DNA of 64,000 nucleotides from an uncultured Lachnospiraceae bacterium. GTDB taxonomy: Bacteria; Bacillota; Clostridia; Lachnospirales; Anaerotignaceae. The notes below the pieces were generated by a model, which saw nothing but the letters and a program-made list of their open reading frames with translations, did no database searches and was not told the origin of the DNA. This document shows, piece after piece, positions 55,026 through 64,000 of the stretch. The stretch covers positions 1 through 64,000 of the forward strand of contig CALWRB010000037.1 of the NCBI GenBank assembly GCA_944383855.1, in the 5' to 3' direction. Each line of letters opens with the position of its first letter. The stretch's first letter is position 1. The position numbers and the translations under genes were made by a program.

Positions 55026-56387
55026 TTATCGTTTGGTTTCTATATTATATTCAGTAATTTTGTTAAAAAGCTGTCTGCGACTGATTCCCATTTTTTCCGC
55101 AGCCTTGGAAATATTATTGTTACATAACTCCAGCATTTGCTCTATATAACTGATCTCAAAAGCCTGTTTTGCTTCTTTATACGGCGGAAGGCTTTTAAGT
55201 TCACTGCCCGGTTTCGTTCTGTTTTCGGCAAGTTTCAATCCGTGTAGAGATAATGTCCCGTCTTGGGATAATATCACCAATCGTTCGATGATATTCTTCA
55301 TTTCACGAATATTTCCGGGATAGCTATGTTCCAGTAAAAAATGCCTGGTTTCTTCCGGAATGTGTGTGATTTGTTTTCCGGTTTCTTTTTGATACTTGTT
55401 CAAGAAAAACGCAACGAATTCCGGCAGATCCTCTTTCCTTTCCCGCAAAGGTGGTACGCGAATCTCGATCGTGTTAATACGATATAAAAAATCCTCACGA
55501 AATGTCCCGTTTTTCACAGCCTGATACAAATCTCGGTTCGTCGCACTAAGCAGGCGAAAATTGACATCGATCAACTGATTGGAACCGATCCTTTCAATTT
55601 GCTTGGTTTCCAATACGCGAAGCAGGGCTACCTGTGTGGATACTTCCATCTCTCCGATCTCGTCCAAAAAAATCGTGCCACCGCTTCCGGATTCTATTTT
55701 CCCGATCCGTTTATTGACAGCGCCGGTAAACGCGCCCTTTTCGTGCCCAAACAATTCAGATTCGATCAGCTTATCCGGATAATTTTTACAGTTAATGGGA
55801 ATAAAGAGCTTGTTTGCCCGATCACTTTGCAGATGGATCTGACTGGCAACGATCTCTTTTCCGACACCGGTTTCCCCTGTGATCAAAACACTGGCATTCG
55901 ACTTTGCCACTTCCGAAACGATCGTCCAGACCTCCTGCATTTTGGGGCTTTTGCTGCTCAGCAGGAACTGCGTCTGGTTATTTGACTCCTGCTGATTGCG
56001 TATCGCCTTCAGTTCCATAATGCTTTTTGCTTTTCTGATCTCCAGCAGCAGATCTACCGGATTGTTTCCTTTGATAAAATATCCGAACGCACCCATTTTG
56101 GTAGTCTGTACCGCAGTTTCGATACTGCCGTATGCCGTCAGCATAATGACTTCGATTTCTTCTTTATAAATCTGCTTGATTTTTTCCAAAAAAACGATCC
56201 CGTCCATTCCCGGCATCATAATATCCGTAATGACCAGCGGGTGATATTCCCCTTCCAATATTTCCAACGCTTCCGTGGCAGATGCGGCAATGCTGACGGA
56301 ATATCCCTCTGCATGCAAAAGCATTTCCAAACTTTCTCTTGCCTCCCGCTCATCGTCCACGACCAATATTTTAAAGATTTCTTTCAT
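55026..56387 (-). CDS. Sigma-54-dependent response regulator (NtrC family)
   Basis: A 453-residue activator with three domains. The receiver (residues 1-120) has ILVVDDE and the phosphorylatable Asp in VITDIMMPGMDG. The AAA+ domain has Walker A GETGVGKE, the sigma-54-contacting loop GAFTGA, and FLDEIGEM. A Fis-type helix-turn-helix ends the protein (NNISKAAEKMGISRRQLFNKI). The ATG at 56385-56387 overlaps the kinase stop by 4 bases and has GGAGGG 8 bases upstream. It lies immediately before the sigma-54 promoter of nhaC-ortA-ortB and is almost certainly its activator; rpoN must be elsewhere. Confidence 0.95.
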   Translation of the reverse strand: MKEIFKILVVDDEREARESLEMLLHAEGYSVSIAASATEALEILEGEYHPLVITDIMMPGMDGIVFLEKIKQIYKEEIEVIMLTAYGSIETAVQTTKMGAFGYFIKGNNPVDLLLEIRKAKSIMELKAIRNQQESNNQTQFLLSSKSPKMQEVWTIVSEVAKSNASVLITGETGVGKEIVASQIHLQSDRANKLFIPINCKNYPDKLIESELFGHEKGAFTGAVNKRIGKIESGSGGTIFLDEIGEMEVSTQVALLRVLETKQIERIGSNQLIDVNFRLLSATNRDLYQAVKNGTFREDFLYRINTIEIRVPPLRERKEDLPEFVAFFLNKYQKETGKQITHIPEETRHFLLEHSYPGNIREMKNIIERLVILSQDGTLSLHGLKLAENRTKPGSELKSLPPYKEAKQAFEISYIEQMLELCNNNISKAAEKMGISRRQLFNKITEYNIETKR

Positions 56388-58408
56388 TCTGCATTCCCTC
56401 CACGTCCGATATCCGGCAAGCAAATACGAAAAGTGGTGCCTGTTCCAACTTTACTCTCCACTTTGATCTCGCCCGACAGCTTTTCCACTTCAGAATAAAC
56501 AACAAATAGCCCAAGACCGGTCCCTTTGCCGGGATCTTTGGTAGTAAAGAACGGGTTAAACAAATTTTCCATGCATTCCTCCGGAATGCCGCACCCGTTA
56601 TCCTCACAGCAAATGATAATCTCTGCACCGCTTTTTTCTCCGGAGAGGATCAGTTTACCATCAAAATCCATCGCATCAATGGCATTGGAAACCAGATTTT
56701 CCAGTATATGTTTCAACGACTCTTGATTGCAAATAAAATACAGTTCCTTACTGCATCGTATTTCCGTATGGATATTTTTCTTTTTTATCCCGTTTTCATG
56801 CAGCTGCAAAATGCTCTCCATAATTTGATATAAACCTATCTTTTCAAACTGATTTCCGGAAATGTGCCAGAAATTCATAACGTTATCAATGATCCTGTTT
56901 GCTTTTTTCACGCTGTCGTCGATATATCCCAAAGAACGCTTCCCGTTCTCGTCCACAGAGATATTTTCGTGCAGCATATAGGTATGCAGACGGATCACCG
57001 AAAGCGGATTGCGGATCTGATGCGCCATACCCGCTGCCAGCTGACCTACCGCCAACATCTTGGACGACTGCAGCAGCTGCATTTTGTTGACCTCATCAAT
57101 GGTAATGTTACGCAGTGTCAAAAGAATACTCATATCAGGCGCTTCCATATGATAAGTCTGCATTTCGTAAACATCTTTTCCGCTTTTGAATTTGCACTGT
57201 TTTCCGTCTTGCTTCAGTGCTTCTTCCAATGCATTCTGCACTTCTTCTTTCTGCAGTTTTCCAAACAATATCTGTACCGGCTTACCAATGCACTGCTCGA
57301 TCGGCAGCTCTGCGTAACGTAGTATCCCCTTGTTGGCATTGATCACTTTCCGTTCTTCATCCAATATTGCAATATATTCCGGAATACTGTCAAAAATCAG
57401 CTGTAACTCATTTCGGTTGGTTTCCAGTTCTCTGGTCCTTGTACGCACCATTTTTTTCAAAGATCTGTTGTTCAACGAAATAAAACCAATGGTCAACAGC
57501 AAAGCCGCACCGGAGATCAGGACGATCCGAATATAGCGTTTTTCCGGTTCCGCTTGGATCAACGGTGTAGAGATACCAAACCACTTTTGCTGTATTTTCT
57601 CTAACTGCCCCTGACCGTTTACCTCTCGGATCACACGATTGATGATCGGTATCAGATCTTGGTGGGTTTTCGGCATGGCAAGCACAACAGGTTCTTCATA
57701 TAAGGCGGTGCTGAGCATGCGAAATTCCGAAATTCCGGTCCATTCCGTAATGTAGTAAGACAAAATCGGTTCATCTCCCACCACGGCATCTACCTCTGCA
57801 TTCGCTAACATCTCCATGCCTTCTTCGATATTACCGACATAAACCAACTGCGCGCCGGGATAGTTTTTTTGCATATACTGATTCGCGTAGTCCCCTCTTT
57901 CTGTGGCGATCTGCATACTGTTGATGTCGTCCACCGTAAATTTGGAGTCCTCCCGCACGACTAAACTGGTACGCAAATTATAGATCGGGTCTGTAAAAAC
58001 ATAATTCTTTTCACGTTCTTCATTCACGAACATATCGCAGAAATCCGTTTCGCCGTTTTTCAGTTTTTCCAGCGCTTCTTCCCATGGATACGGCTCCATA
58101 CGGATCTCCACTCCAAGCTCCAAAGCCAACTGCGACATATAATCTACCACTACACCTTTATATACCCCGTCTGAGTCCACAAAACGCAACGGGGGCGCAT
58201 TGGAATTCGCACCGTAAACCAAACAGTCGTCTTCTCCTAAATATTTCTTCAAAATGTAATATTTTTCACCGTCTTCGGTTTTTTGGATCGCGATATACAA
58301 CAGACTCAACGCGATCGAAGCCACGATCAGCGCACCTAAAAAGAAGATCCCCCATTTCCTGTTTTGCTGCCATAAATATTTTCTCCAATCTTCCTGTTTT
58401 TTCTGCAT
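56384..58408 (-). CDS. Sensor histidine kinase with solute-binding (SBP_bac_3) sensor domain
   Basis: A 674-residue membrane kinase. TM1 (about residues 21-41) is followed by an extracytoplasmic domain of the amino-acid-binding type (SBP_bac_3, about 60-290; [53 protein letters not shown]). Then come TM2 (about 300-320), a PAS domain ([21 protein letters not shown]), the phosphoacceptor His in [14 protein letters not shown], and the ATPase domain ([20 protein letters not shown]). The sensor type suggests detection of an amino acid or related ligand outside the cell. The ATG at 58406-58408 is chosen with GGGGGA upstream; it is operonic with the activator. Confidence 0.94.
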
Positions 58409-58574
58409 ATCTTTTCCCCCATGCCGATTTTCCACTTTTTTCTTCTTCCATGGTATCATTTTGGCACTTTGTGTGCAAGCAGCACCGAAAACTTTCGTTC
58501 CTTTTTCATCGAAAGCAGACAAACTTCCACTCTCCGGCGCTGTTATTTGGAAATGCCCGTTTTCGTTTTTCATA

Positions 58575-58615
58575 AAAAATGACAGCCGAAAAAAACTTTT
58601 CCGACTGTCATTTTT
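58575..58615 (-). terminator. Terminator after the GGDEF/EAL gene
   Basis: A perfect 11-bp stem (58575-58585 with 58605-58615), with further pairing in the loop, followed by a T run on the minus strand. It separates the cyclic-di-GMP genes from the kinase operon. Confidence 0.85.
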
Positions 58616-58682: not shown

Positions 58683-60929
58683 TTACTTTCGCATGCTCAT
58701 ATATTTCGCACTGAAGTCCTTTGCGTTCATCGGTTTTTCGTAGAAATACCCCTGCCCGTAATCGCAGCGCAAAGACTTCATCGTTTCCTTATCATGTTCT
58801 GTTTCTATACCTTCCGCTACGGTAGTGATACCCAATCTTTCCGCGAAACGAATCATCTGTTCCAGTATGATCACTCTTCGTTTATTGTCGTCTTCACTGC
58901 CCTTGCGTAAAAATCCTCTGTCAAACTTCAATTCATCGATTTTCAGTTGATAGAGCATATTCAAAGAGGAATAGCCGCTTCCAAAATCATCCATAGAGAT
59001 CCGGAAACCTTTTTCATGCAGTACGTTGATCTGATGGATCATCAGCTCCAGATTTTCCGTGTCCATGTTCTCCAAGATTTCCAAAACGATCCACGAAGGG
59101 GAAATCTCATATTTTTTCACCAGTTTATCCAAATGCTCCGGATAATTTCTGTCTAAAAACAGGTATATTGACTGGTTCACAGAAATCGGGATCGGTTCCA
59201 CTCCGCTGTCAATCCATTTCTTTATTTGCTGGCAAGCTTTTTCCAGCATATACATATCCAGCTTCAAACAGAAACCGTTGCGTTCAAATATCGGTATAAA
59301 TTCATTCGGATAGCGGTACGAGCCGTCCGGCCTGCGCCATCTGACCAATGCCTCCGCCCCCGCAAGCGTATCATCATGCAAATCGAATTTAGGCTGAAGG
59401 AATAGTTTAAACTCCTCATTTTTCAATGCCAAATGCATATAGCTTTCAATGCTGTTCTTTTGTCTGAGCTGTTCATGCAATTCATTGTTATAAAACGCAA
59501 TATCTTTTCGATGCACATTTTTAATGCTCTGCAATGCGACCAGTGCCTGTTCCCTATCGCCATTTAGGGCTATTCCCGCATAAAGCAACAGTTCATAGCT
59601 GTAACCGCCATACTTCAGGGAAGTCTTGTTTACAGAATAAAGGATAGAATTGATTCTTTCCGTTATCACAGCCTCATCATCTGTATTCAGCAAAAGATAA
59701 AACATATCCGCAGACTCACGGCAGAAAAATTCGGTTTTATCCATACTTTTTTCAATTATATTCTTGATATAGCACAGTACTCTGTCCCCTTCTTTTTTCT
59801 GGAACAGATCATTGACGCCTTTAAAATTACGCACGTTCAGTGCAACAACAGCATATGGCTGCCGACCTTTTGGAACTTCCGCAAATTTCTGATCGAAACG
59901 CAGTATATTATCCGCTCCGGTCAGCAAATCGGTATACGCCAAACGAATCAGATTTTTCGTACTTTTTCTGATTTGCGCATAACCCATATAAATCAAGGCA
60001 TTGACCGCAACCGCCACAGTGATCATTACACCGCCGACGATCGCGTAGATATTCCCGATCAAAAACGATGAGCTCCAAATTCTATTCGCGCAGAATAAAT
60101 ACCAACCATTGATGTTCAGCGGTTCCAGATAATAGTGGCATTCTTCGCCTTTGTATTCAAAATCACCAAACATGCTCTCTCCGTTATGGAGAGCTTCTTT
60201 TGTCTTTTGCTTCATATCTTCCGTTAAGTAAGGACCCAAGAAAATATTCTCATACGTTTCCTTTACCAAAGAATACTGCGATCGGATCAAAAAGAAACCG
60301 TCCTGATTGATGATATGGATATATCCTTGCCCATTTTGCACATATCCGCTGTTGGTAACACTCGTAAAACCCTCCAACGTGCCGCTGGCAACCAAAACAG
60401 CGACGACTGTATCCTCTTGATAAACCGGGACAGCATACACGAACACCTTTTGATTCAAATATGCGCTCTGAAACATCTTAGATATAGAATTTTCGCCTTC
60501 AAAAGCTGCTCGGATCGCTTTTTGGGCATACTCATGGGTAGTCTGCGTCGGATTTAAAATCGTGATCCCGTCTGCCACGTTGATGACAGAGGAGCCATCT
60601 TTCAAAATATAAGCAATACTTTTAAAATCATTCTGTTTATCGATTTCTTCCAAACAATTTCCGATCTTATCCAAAGACAGCTCCGTCTTTGCGCTGGTTT
60701 CAAATAATTTCGCAGTAGTGGTCAGAATTTGCATATTCTTATCCAACTGTTCATAGATCCTGTCCTTGCACTCCTGCGTTTCCAACTGCATCTGCAAATG
60801 ATCCGCCTGATGTGAAGCATTTTTGACATAGGCAATCAAACCGGCTGCGATCAAGCTCAGCAAAAGACTGCTTATGATCGTAATGACCGTAAGCTTTTTC
60901 AGTTGTCTTTTTAACATGATATCATCCAT
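58683..60929 (-). CDS. Membrane EAL phosphodiesterase with degenerate GGDEF domain
   Basis: A 748-residue protein. TM1 (about residues 13-35), an extracytoplasmic dCache-like sensor of about 240 residues (ending near ENGWYLFC-type text NINGWYLFCANRIW), TM2 (about 285-310), then a GGDEF domain in which the active motif reads ESADM (CRESADMFYLLL), so cyclase activity is unlikely. The C-terminal EAL domain keeps its metal ligands and catalytic residues (GAEALVRW, SVNQS, LEILENMD, DDFGSGYSS, EGIET), so it probably hydrolyses cyclic-di-GMP. ATG at 60927-60929 is preferred; a GTG nine bases upstream is possible. Confidence 0.9.
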   Translation of the reverse strand: MDDIMLKRQLKKLTVITIISSLLLSLIAAGLIAYVKNASHQADHLQMQLETQECKDRIYEQLDKNMQILTTTAKLFETSAKTELSLDKIGNCLEEIDKQNDFKSIAYILKDGSSVINVADGITILNPTQTTHEYAQKAIRAAFEGENSISKMFQSAYLNQKVFVYAVPVYQEDTVVAVLVASGTLEGFTSVTNSGYVQNGQGYIHIINQDGFFLIRSQYSLVKETYENIFLGPYLTEDMKQKTKEALHNGESMFGDFEYKGEECHYYLEPLNINGWYLFCANRIWSSSFLIGNIYAIVGGVMITVAVAVNALIYMGYAQIRKSTKNLIRLAYTDLLTGADNILRFDQKFAEVPKGRQPYAVVALNVRNFKGVNDLFQKKEGDRVLCYIKNIIEKSMDKTEFFCRESADMFYLLLNTDDEAVITERINSILYSVNKTSLKYGGYSYELLLYAGIALNGDREQALVALQSIKNVHRKDIAFYNNELHEQLRQKNSIESYMHLALKNEEFKLFLQPKFDLHDDTLAGAEALVRWRRPDGSYRYPNEFIPIFERNGFCLKLDMYMLEKACQQIKKWIDSGVEPIPISVNQSIYLFLDRNYPEHLDKLVKKYEISPSWIVLEILENMDTENLELMIHQINVLHEKGFRISMDDFGSGYSSLNMLYQLKIDELKFDRGFLRKGSEDDNKRRVIILEQMIRFAERLGITTVAEGIETEHDKETMKSLRCDYGQGYFYEKPMNAKDFSAKYMSMRK

Positions 60930-61039
60930 TGTTTTCACCAGAATTCACGGCTATATCTTATAGATCCTTTCGGCACCGCGTTTTTGTAAGCGTGGTGTCT
61001 TTTCTACATGCACAGAGTATTTCCCATTGATCGGAATTT

Positions 61040-62863
61040 CTAAAAATATTCTTCCACGATCTTCTTCTCAGCTTCCCAATCCGGCAGCGGTGTAAAAAAT
61101 CGGAATCCCTGTATCACATCGCAATTCATGTTTTTCAGCAATTCTACTTGTTTGTCATTTTCAACGCCTTCCGCCAAAATTGTCATTCCCAGCTCATGCC
61201 CCACTTGTACCATCGCTTTGATAACGGCATTTCCGCTTGGGGTCAGCAAAGAATCGATCAAAGCTTTATCCAATTTGATCCCGTCGATCTGATATTTCTG
61301 TAAGTCATAAAACGACGTAAAGCCTTCTCCGAAATCATCTAAGGCGATCCTTACTCCAAAACGCTTCAGCTGCAAGATATTTTTTTGGATCTGCTGCACA
61401 TTTTTGGCGGCGGTGCTTTCAGTCAGCTCGAAAATCAATAATTCTTTCGCAAAATCATACTGTTTCATGATTTCTTCACACTTAGCCGCAAAATCCGCCG
61501 CTGAAAAAGATTCTCTGGAAAAATTACACGACAAAAAGAAGGATTCGATTTTCTTTTGTTTCAATTCCGAAAGAAATTTGCACGCTTTTTCCAAACAATA
61601 ATAGTCCAGCCGGCTGATGCTTTTTTCCCGTTCCATCAGCGGAACAAATACGCCCGGCATGATCAGTCCTTTTTGCGGATGAATCCAACGCGAAAGCGCC
61701 TCTCCTCCAACGATCCGACCGGAATGGATATCTACATAAAATTGGATATACAGCGCAAATTCATTTCGGATAAAAGCCTGTTCCATGCTTGCCTGCAGCA
61801 GCCTTTCCTGCGTAAGCTGCTGCAAAATGGATTCCTCGCACAAAAGAACTTTTTCTTCCCTCTCTTTCGCGATCAATGCGCACTGAGCAGCGATCACCAT
61901 CATTTCTTTCAAATCAACATCGTTTTTTTGGATCCGATAAATTCCGCAGGTGACTTTCGCATCAGAGATCCCGGAAAGATTTTCTGTATAAAAATTCATT
62001 TCGTTGCAAACTTTCTTAGCCCATTCCAGAGATTTTTCCAGATCCGGACAAAACTTGATCACAGCGAATCCTCTGTTTGCCCATCTGGAAAGCACATCTT
62101 TCGGTTCTTGATTTTGCATCAGCACATCTGAACAGCCGCGCAGAAATTCCTCTGCTTCCCGGACCCCGTTTACCCGATAAAGTCTTTCGGTATCAACGGA
62201 AAAGTACAGCAGGCAGTACAGCACTTTTGTCTTGCTGCCGTAAAGTTTTTTCCAAGCGCTTTGCAGATAGTCCGTATTTCCCATTCCGCTGACTTCGTCC
62301 GTTTCTGTATGGCGGCGAATGGCGTACAGGCTTTTTCTATATTTTCTTACTGTGATAAGAATAATATACAACAACATTATAATTATAAATAACAATGCAC
62401 CGACTGTCAAATAATTATTGTTTTTGTCAATTTTCGTTACGGCTGTATCGATCAAAATGCCGTTTACCTGTTCCGCCGAAACCGTATCCAAATACGCTGT
62501 CAGCTCCTCCCGAAATGCTGCGGGCGCAATTTCCGTAAAACCGATACTGTATTGCTGCTCGTTTTCCCCACTTCCGGCAGAAAAAACCTCTTTTTCCTCC
62601 AATCCGACCAACGGTGCTTCTGTATTGTCGCAGTCGGATACCACATCTACCTGCAAATTTTCAGCCAGCTGCTGCCTGTTGTCCTCCGCGTTTGGTTGAT
62701 AATATACAATATCATACTTGCTCTGCGCAGAAAACTCCGCAAACAGCTGCGGAATGACTCCCTCAAACTTTTCAGTATCCGAATTATAGTATTCTACAGG
62801 ATATCCGTTTGGATTTCCGGCAATATATATTGTAATTTTATCTTCCACGGCATTCCCCTTCAT
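61040..62863 (-). CDS. EAL-domain protein with SBP-like N-terminus and degenerate GGDEF
   Basis: A 607-residue protein. Residues about 8-145 resemble part of a solute-binding (SBP_bac_3) domain (YIAGNPNGYPVEYYNSDTEKF), but no signal peptide or first membrane helix precedes it. One membrane helix follows (about 152-172), then a GGDEF-like domain whose motif is replaced by ANRGF (RWANRGFAVIKF), and a C-terminal EAL domain with intact motifs (GGEALSRW, CNFSRE, FELTES, DDFGEGFTS, EGVEND). Cyclic-di-GMP hydrolysis is likely, or regulated binding. Its ATG overlaps the DivIVA-like gene stop by 4 bases. Confidence 0.88.
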   Translation of the reverse strand: MKGNAVEDKITIYIAGNPNGYPVEYYNSDTEKFEGVIPQLFAEFSAQSKYDIVYYQPNAEDNRQQLAENLQVDVVSDCDNTEAPLVGLEEKEVFSAGSGENEQQYSIGFTEIAPAAFREELTAYLDTVSAEQVNGILIDTAVTKIDKNNNYLTVGALLFIIIMLLYIILITVRKYRKSLYAIRRHTETDEVSGMGNTDYLQSAWKKLYGSKTKVLYCLLYFSVDTERLYRVNGVREAEEFLRGCSDVLMQNQEPKDVLSRWANRGFAVIKFCPDLEKSLEWAKKVCNEMNFYTENLSGISDAKVTCGIYRIQKNDVDLKEMMVIAAQCALIAKEREEKVLLCEESILQQLTQERLLQASMEQAFIRNEFALYIQFYVDIHSGRIVGGEALSRWIHPQKGLIMPGVFVPLMEREKSISRLDYYCLEKACKFLSELKQKKIESFFLSCNFSRESFSAADFAAKCEEIMKQYDFAKELLIFELTESTAAKNVQQIQKNILQLKRFGVRIALDDFGEGFTSFYDLQKYQIDGIKLDKALIDSLLTPSGNAVIKAMVQVGHELGMTILAEGVENDKQVELLKNMNCDVIQGFRFFTPLPDWEAEKKIVEEYF

Positions 62864-63372
62864 TCTCCGCTTTCACTTTTTCGTTCAAATAAAGACATAT
62901 TCCCGCAAGGAGCGCTCTGCATCGTTTCCTCAGCCGTATCCGTAAGTCCCTGTATTTGCATATCCATGCTGTTTAATGTTTCCCGGACTTTTTCCCGCAG
63001 ATCAGAAATTGATTTTTGATAATGCAGCAATTCTTTCTTTTTTTGTTTCAGATCTTCGTAAAATTTTTCCATTTCCGCCTTTTGTTTTTCCTCCGCTTCC
63101 GCCTGCATCGTCTGCGCAAAACGTTTCGCGTCAAGCAGCGTCATAGAGATCATATCCTGATGTGTGACATGATTTTCCAGCTTTTGCTTCGTTTCCAAAA
63201 GTTCGTTTTCCAACGTATGTATTCTGGAAAGATACATTTCTTCCTTCTTTTTGATCTCTTCCTCTTTTTCTAACAATGTTGTGGAAAATTTATCCTCCAT
63301 AGAGGAAACAAGTTGATAAACACTATCTTTCTGATAACCCCAAAATCCTCTTTTTAATTGATCGATCTCCAT
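62860..63372 (-). CDS. DivIVA-like coiled-coil protein
   Basis: A 170-residue protein. The N-terminal 25 residues (RGFWGYQKDSVYQLVSSMED) resemble the DivIVA lipid-binding motif with its GY-x-VD pattern. Residues about 30-140 are a Lys/Glu-rich coiled coil, with a short tail after a second coil (MDMQIQGLTDTAEETMQ). DivIVA relatives mark curved membranes or poles and recruit partners. Placement between a polysaccharide glycosyltransferase and an EAL protein suggests a scaffolding role; this is inference. The stop overlaps the next start. Confidence 0.75.
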   Translation of the reverse strand: MEIDQLKRGFWGYQKDSVYQLVSSMEDKFSTTLLEKEEEIKKKEEMYLSRIHTLENELLETKQKLENHVTHQDMISMTLLDAKRFAQTMQAEAEEKQKAEMEKFYEDLKQKKKELLHYQKSISDLREKVRETLNSMDMQIQGLTDTAEETMQSAPCGNMSLFERKSESGE

Positions 63373-63386
63373 AAAAAACTCCTTTC

Positions 63387-64000
63387 TTAAAGTCTAAAAT
63401 CCATTTCCTTACGCTCAATGCTGCCCCACTGATGTTTTTTCTTCTTATAACCCACAAGCGCCGTTGCGCGAACCCATGCTAACATCAGCCGCAGAAAAGA
63501 AACTTCTACGGCACAAAGCCCTATGACTTTTAAAACATCGCTTGCCGACAATTTCAAATCTATCGTATGGATCCGTGAGAAAAAAGCCGTTAAGGACAGG
63601 ATCGACGAGTATAAAACATACATCAGAAAAAACAAAATCATAAACGGCACATTGATCAAATCCAATAGAAAAGCTATCACGATCGTCAGAATCCCAAACA
63701 CCTCAATGTACGGCGAAAAAAGCTCATAGAGCAAAAAATACAGATAAGAGATCAAGCCGACCAGACCATACTTCAAATTGAAGAATATTTTTCTATGCAT
63801 CATCATGCTCTGAAACAAACCGATATGCCATCTTCTGCGCTGTTTGCATAAGTCCCTCAATTTTTCGGGTGCCTGTGTCCAGCAGATCGCATCTGTAGCG
63901 TATTTCATTTTATATGGTATATTATTTTCTATACAAAACTCATGCAGCTTGACGACCAGTTCCATATCTTCTCCCATGGTATCGGCATCATACCCACCCG
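63387..64000 (-). CDS. Membrane glycosyltransferase family 2 protein (5' end outside window)
   Basis: 203 C-terminal residues are visible. The GT2 acidic motif appears as GGYDADTMGEDMELVVKLH and the processive-enzyme QxxRW motif as CKQRRRWHIGLFQSM, followed by about three to four membrane segments. This is the BcsA/PgaC/HasA-like architecture for polymerising and exporting a polysaccharide. No PilZ domain is seen in the visible C-terminus. It lies at the head of a gene group with a DivIVA-like protein and two EAL proteins. Confidence 0.88.
   Translation of the reverse strand, partial: GGYDADTMGEDMELVVKLHEFCIENNIPYKMKYATDAICWTQAPEKLRDLCKQRRRWHIGLFQSMMMHRKIFFNLKYGLVGLISYLYFLLYELFSPYIEVFGILTIVIAFLLDLINVPFMILFFLMYVLYSSILSLTAFFSRIHTIDLKLSASDVLKVIGLCAVEVSFLRLMLAWVRATALVGYKKKKHQWGSIERKEMDFRL

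Follow-up and report, generated by a model that had tools for sequence, protein, structure and literature searches.

A probable exopolysaccharide operon of gut Clostridia with candidate cyclic-di-GMP phosphodiesterases encoded beside its GT2 synthase

Does a polysaccharide synthase of gut Clostridia come with its own cyclic-di-GMP (c-di-GMP) control? Little is known of the matrix polysaccharides of gut Clostridia, which are abundant, or of the targets of their c-di-GMP. The question is raised by a 64,000-nucleotide stretch of DNA from an uncultured Lachnospiraceae bacterium (the window), in which positions 58683-64000 encode a membrane glycosyltransferase of family 2 (GT2), a DivIVA-like protein and two EAL-domain proteins (EAL1 and EAL2). 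An earlier note, made from the sequence alone, described a probable exopolysaccharide locus under c-di-GMP control with the four genes on one strand, joined by an overlap and short gaps. The arrangement was confirmed: all four genes lie on the minus strand in the order and spacing described and the coordinates agree, with 14 nt between GT2 and the DivIVA-like gene, a 4-nt overlap of the latter with EAL1, and 101 nt between EAL1 and EAL2. The functional proposal is supported in outline by the order of the operon and by the conserved adjacency of EAL1 and GT2. The features of the locus are as follows.

63387..64000, minus strand: 3' part of the gene for a processive membrane GT2, PgaC/IcaA-like (Glyco_tranf_2_3, 75 bits; TIGR03937, 137.8 bits)
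62860..63372, minus strand: DivIVA-like coiled-coil protein, 170 aa (Pfam DivIVA sub-threshold, in an ortholog)
61040..62863, minus strand: EAL1, with an apparent SBP_bac_3 remnant (residues ~10-145), one TM (154-172), a degenerate GGDEF domain (188-336) and an intact EAL domain (359-592)
62382..62410, minus strand: internal sigma-70-type promoter sequence in EAL1, a perfect TTGACA-N17-TATAAT in the TM-coding part, found in six species
61088..61789, minus strand: EAL domain of EAL1, with the complete catalytic set E388, R392, N447, E479, D509, D510, K530, E565 and Q585
58683..60938, minus strand: EAL2, with two TMs flanking a dCache-like domain (63-282), a degenerate GGDEF domain (334-460) and an intact EAL domain (504-736)
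58731..59429, minus strand: EAL domain of EAL2, with the complete catalytic set
58575..58615, minus strand: intrinsic terminator closing the operon, with a 19-bp stem and U-run (MFE -21.6 kcal/mol, z -6.1)

The terminator hairpin and its U-run sit 3' of EAL2. Beyond them, on the same strand, are a histidine kinase with an intact SBP_bac_3 sensor and a PAS domain, then a sigma-54-dependent response regulator (55026-58573, minus strand), and further along a multi-TM transporter. An Rfam scan of the window and the contig ends gave no match, and a search of the bacterium's own genome for the c-di-GMP-I riboswitch gave none either, the control being likewise without a match anywhere.

The GT2 gene runs past the window and breaks off where the contig ends, at 64610, leaving 407 aa. 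Because the sequence retains DDG, DAD, GED and QRRRW, the enzyme is assigned to the processive membrane type. Against the PgaC_IcaA model (TIGR03937) it scored 137.8 bits for the truncated window gene and 145.5 bits for a full ortholog, with an equivalog cut-off of 422; against CelA (TIGR03030) the scores were 37.7 and 40.1, with a cut-off of 699, and the protein does not class as a cellulose synthase. The product of the next gene has a conserved N-terminal GFxGYxKxSVYxY motif and a C-terminal NMSLFERK. The family name that the earlier note gave it is only weakly supported: Pfam DivIVA (PF05103) gave no match for the window protein and 25.8 bits for an ortholog, below the cut-off of 28. In another genus, a protein of the same family adjoins a Wzz/BY-kinase/CpsB-type capsule locus (L031:9775-15475 and L033:9452-15002), a neighbourhood that suggests a wider role of this family with polysaccharide machines.

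The contig of the window ends 610 bases past the window edge, inside the operon, and what precedes GT2 was therefore read from relatives. With the DivIVA-like protein as query, 58 genomes of the family yielded 13 relatives, and eleven of their loci gave the operon, most of them in full: (diguanylate cyclase)-VTC-DUF4956-CotH-glycoside hydrolase-HEAT-GT2-(DivIVA-like)-EAL1-(EAL2). In these family relatives the 5' gene encodes a PAS-GGDEF diguanylate cyclase with an intact GGDEF, and the HEAT protein has one TM. The 714-aa protein between CotH and HEAT had no Pfam match and no match in a sequence search against the PDB; in a fold search its model matched clan GH-A TIM barrels (Z 23-27), with GH157 best (Z 26.6) and GH2 at about 24. 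It has an invariant E354 in SEYGVS, placed like the GH-A nucleophile, and E201 and E203 are also invariant. In the own genome, which is only 87% complete, an assembly gap covers the part of the operon upstream of GT2, and the presence of these genes is deduced from the relatives, which weighs against our explanation. An ORF cut by the end of a 4.6-kb contig of this genome (C52) has 45% identity over 320 aa to the N-terminus of the relatives' cyclase. Since this truncated ORF matches the first gene of the operon, C52 very probably flanks the locus on its 5' side; it also carries a divergent dCache-GAF-GGDEF cyclase. The earlier note had proposed to look past the edge for more exopolysaccharide genes, and held that finding none would speak against it. 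That outcome did not arise. The relatives supply HEAT, hydrolase, CotH, DUF4956 and VTC genes, and often a diguanylate cyclase, before GT2, and in the own genome the operon's first gene was found cut off on another contig.

To survey the operon more widely we scanned GTDB genomes with the hydrolase, which gave at least 549 encoding stretches; 80 loci were kept and more exist. Similarity to the hydrolase was the basis of choice, and the loci are not independent in their phylogeny; among the matches listed they are mostly from Clostridia, with one from Paenibacillus. Across the fetched Clostridia loci, the core of six genes and EAL1 are found repeatedly in an unchanged arrangement, and the order VTC>DUF4956>CotH>GH>HEAT>GT2 is kept in 88-100% of loci per step (VTC and DUF4956 adjacent in 74 of 74 loci, DUF4956 and CotH in 68 of 77). 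In 72 of 82 informative loci EAL1 is the gene behind GT2, whether or not the DivIVA-like gene stands between them, and in one more a further gene intervenes. At L095:8332-11661 the two are one ORF of 1109 aa with a signal-peptide-like segment between them; as this comes from a single MAG, the fusion may be an assembly or base error. At L073 and L151 the position behind GT2 is taken by a REC-HD-GYP or HD-GYP protein, as is that of EAL2 at L035; HD-GYP phosphodiesterases stand in at several loci missing EAL proteins. About half of the loci have no GGDEF gene inside the fetched flanks, which counts against a local circuit. GGDEF is encoded in 50 of 50 operon-bearing genomes sampled; within the family, all genomes with a full hydrolase match encode it, and 10 of the 58 family genomes are without any. 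At one locus (L036:5527-19489, genome G004) the whole operon has decayed, with most genes fragmented and EAL1 still open. The gene set is conserved, apparently unnamed and probably used by gut Clostridia for a surface polysaccharide, and a literature search, run without most subscription journals, found no paper that describes it.

The claim that both GGDEF domains have lost their motif held up: EAL1 has ANRGF and EAL2 SADMF, the site is degenerate in all aligned orthologs, and with the GG(D/E)EF active-site motif absent neither protein classes as a diguanylate cyclase. By inspection, the I-site (RxxD) is absent from both window domains as well. The EAL1 site drifts freely among orthologs (ANRGF, SDNDF, SYSGF, SENGF), and with its guanine pocket lost this domain is probably only structural. 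In EAL2 the site is nearly fixed as [ST][AG]DxF and the guanine-pocket positions N376 and D385 are invariant, and the domain could still bind guanine nucleotide, as in PdeA or RbdA. The metal-binding Asp is replaced by Asn in the window protein (N368), so GTP binding is uncertain.

The EAL domains were likewise correctly described as keeping their motif. Each scores 204.5 bits against Pfam EAL, beside GGDEF scores of 26.4 bits in EAL1 and 50.9 bits in EAL2, with SBP_bac_3 (EAL1) and dCache (EAL2) sub-threshold; EAL2 has an alternative ATG start at 60929. The catalytic residues are complete and invariant in alignments of 12 family orthologs of EAL1 and seven of EAL2. With the set intact, neither is a dead EAL domain of the LapD type, and both look catalytically competent. 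The predicted model of EAL1 (mean pLDDT 88.5) matched catalytically active EAL structures at Z ~32 in a fold search. About nine of 68 EAL1 orthologs are altered at catalytic residues, with at least two changes on the GT2 tree and the gene still beside GT2, which counts against an explanation centred on hydrolysis. Since some orthologs have lost these residues, EAL1 may act as a binding or structural subunit as well. The idea that genomes with a degenerate EAL1 have lost c-di-GMP was rejected, as all those sampled still encode GGDEF.

The N-terminal domain of EAL1 looks like a shortened SBP_bac_3 remnant. This profile is matched at E<=0.01 by 24 of 35 orthologs (best 5.7e-7), and by the window protein over profile positions 3-66 of 132 only (E 0.052). 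A profile search of the N-terminus against the PDB reached E 0.64, and the fold-search list was filled by GGDEF-EAL structures. Many orthologs have a signal-peptide-like segment ahead of the domain, so that it is probably extracytoplasmic. One clade of 35 members, the window included, is without the signal peptide, a single change on the tree. EAL1 in this clade keeps a conserved domain of ~150 residues before its only TM, which must cross the membrane as an N-tail if the EAL domain is to stay cytoplasmic. A link between loss of the signal peptide and gain of the DivIVA-like gene was considered (raw Fisher p 2.8e-8) and rejected, since the GT2 tree, on which the signal peptide changes once and the DivIVA-like gene nine times, gives no independent support.

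EAL1 also contains the internal promoter sequence. The perfect TTGACA-N17-TATAAT stands at the same place in six species, every one with EAL2 downstream; several other EAL2-bearing loci are without it. Among the six species 40 Leu/Thr/Ile columns are identical in protein, and codons are identical in four, all of them the promoter's own; random placement would give those four columns with odds of 1 in 91,390. In 278 kb (15 loci) we counted seven perfect promoters, six of which are the one inside EAL1. From this conservation, the promoter would drive EAL2 independently of the operon promoter. A promoter for a truncated EAL1 was rejected, as no in-frame start codon equipped with a ribosome-binding site is conserved among the six species. 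Just one other perfect sigma-70 consensus promoter with a spacing of 17 occurs in the 64-kb window, at position 564 on the minus strand.

How much other c-di-GMP machinery surrounds the operon differs among genomes. If C52 is taken to be its flank, the locus accounts for both EAL genes and all three GGDEF domains detected in the own genome; contig C45 has a weak EAL fragment (E 6.5e-5, below the cut-off). In a second genome of the genus (G017, 97% complete), three GGDEF and two full EAL domains were detected, and these belong to EAL1, EAL2 and a SnoaL-GGDEF cyclase. The cyclase lies just upstream of VTC, and EAL2 is at the edge of a contig that must join. HD-GYP gave no match in either genome. 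The earlier note had suggested looking for a PilZ receptor; none was found in the own genome (87% complete), and the operon core has no identified c-di-GMP receptor, both of which count against our explanation. Elsewhere, genomes with the operon carry as many as 42 GGDEF matches (Blautia parvula), so dedication of c-di-GMP to this locus is a trait of the genus and not of the operon.

We regard as likely a synthase-dependent exopolysaccharide operon with its own dedicated local c-di-GMP circuit, in which EAL1 is the resident phosphodiesterase. In the model that we infer, the membrane GT2, probably partnered by the membrane-anchored HEAT protein, would polymerise and extrude a polysaccharide; the surface-anchored clan GH-A hydrolase would trim or release the polymer, and VTC-DUF4956-CotH would be an accessory set. 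Diguanylate cyclases encoded at the 5' end would make c-di-GMP and so turn the synthase on, and EAL1, made beside GT2 and probably bound to it, would hydrolyse c-di-GMP locally. EAL2, with its extracytoplasmic dCache sensor and probably its own active promoter, would be a second, signal-responsive sink, and the DivIVA-like protein may bring the complex to regions of curved membrane. Synteny, the one fusion and the single-locus inventory suggest that both EAL enzymes act locally near the synthase.

The same evidence permits other readings. EAL1 might mainly be a c-di-GMP receptor subunit, a trigger phosphodiesterase in which c-di-GMP in the EAL pocket would alter the contact with GT2 and switch polymerisation, with hydrolysis as the reset. 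It is the one recognisable c-di-GMP-binding domain that accompanies GT2 almost everywhere, and the fusion at L095, the repeated loss of catalytic residues with the gene kept beside GT2 in genomes that still encode GGDEF, and the lack of PilZ in the own genome would all fit such a role. However, the window EAL1 and most orthologs keep the full catalytic set, and direct binding of c-di-GMP by GT2 or by the HEAT protein is conceivable, as in PgaC-PgaD; we hold the receptor role to be possible and doubtful. Equally tentative is its extension, in which EAL1 would be an integral sensing (and resetting) subunit of the GT2 complex that replaces PilZ, PgaD, MshEN or PelD across Clostridia, and the whole detected c-di-GMP inventory of some species would serve one machine.

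A role of the EAL proteins in setting c-di-GMP globally, with their place beside GT2 a mere result of co-transcription, is unlikely. No other full EAL proteins were detected in the own genome or G017, so there local and global pools would be identical; but the adjacency is conserved across Clostridia even in genomes with many other GGDEF genes, such as B. parvula, and the L095 fusion also argues against this. Least probable is that the operon is a disguised Pel or PNAG locus of the Gram-positive type, which we consider very unlikely. The trio and hydrolase do accompany Pel in streptococci and Clostridia (PMC7112168, PMC12345266) and PgaC/IcaA is nearest to GT2, but no PelD/E/F/G-type gene was recognised among the operon genes and the PgaC/IcaA score falls far below its cut-off. 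On the favoured reading of a local circuit, the operon would be a compact example of a second messenger dedicated to one machine. An operon that couples a non-Pel, non-PNAG, non-cellulose synthase to its own cyclases and phosphodiesterases is a concrete target, and a genus with all detected c-di-GMP enzymes at one locus offers a natural minimal system for the question of local signalling.

Among the closest known systems is the Gram-positive Pel operon. There CotH, a poly-phosphate polymerase (VTC) and DUF4956 form a contiguous trio that, with a surface hydrolase, lies beside Pel (PMC7112168); Streptococcus intermedius SIR_1591-1594 is an example of such a locus, and a study from 2025 found no trio away from Pel (PMC12345266). 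Our operon shares the trio, as seen in relatives, a surface-anchored TIM-barrel hydrolase and, in many species, a c-di-GMP link. It differs in having a PgaC-like GT2 in place of PelF/PelG, no PelD, and added HEAT, DivIVA-like and EAL1 genes; a scan of ten operon proteins and the gene order of the loci both showed no pelD-E-A-DA-F-G gene. As the trio accompanies a non-Pel synthase in about 70 loci, it would be a more general accessory of Gram-positive polysaccharide synthases and not a Pel speciality. The own genome has a second, distant VTC-DUF4956 pair (L067, contig C10, 455-7090), then a lipoprotein-like, probably CotH-like gene of 653 aa; it adjoins a response regulator and a histidine kinase, without an exopolysaccharide synthase, and several family genomes show a similar layout, at L069-L071, L075 and L078.

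The PNAG synthase PgaC/IcaA is the nearest named GT2 family by score, but that score is a third of the cut-off, no PgaA/B/D or IcaB/D-like gene was recognised and the operon is another. In Streptomyces the apical glycan synthase CslA-GlxA is linked with DivIVA, the cell's main polarity protein; the passages of PMC13432765 that matched contain no statement of a direct synthase-DivIVA interaction. Both systems link a GT2 synthase with a DivIVA protein, which here is small, DivIVA-like and encoded beside the synthase. EAL1 and EAL2 share with LapD and FimX the degenerate GGDEF-EAL architecture and a similar EAL fold (Z 26-29), but their EAL catalytic residues are intact. In PdeA (CC3396) and RbdA (PA0861) an EAL enzyme carries a GGDEF domain that is non-cyclising or regulatory for EAL. 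Their structures (4hjf, 5xgd) were among our fold-search matches, and EAL2 resembles them in its guanine-pocket positions, whereas it has lost the metal-binding Asp and EAL1 has lost the pocket. Finally, local c-di-GMP control in E. coli is exerted by DgcC/PdeK at BcsA and by DgcJ at NfrB (PMC8669469). There, as we propose here, a dedicated cyclase and phosphodiesterase serve an exopolysaccharide GT2; the E. coli receptors, PilZ and MshEN, are known, whereas in the clostridial operon the phosphodiesterase is encoded inside the operon itself and is once fused to GT2.
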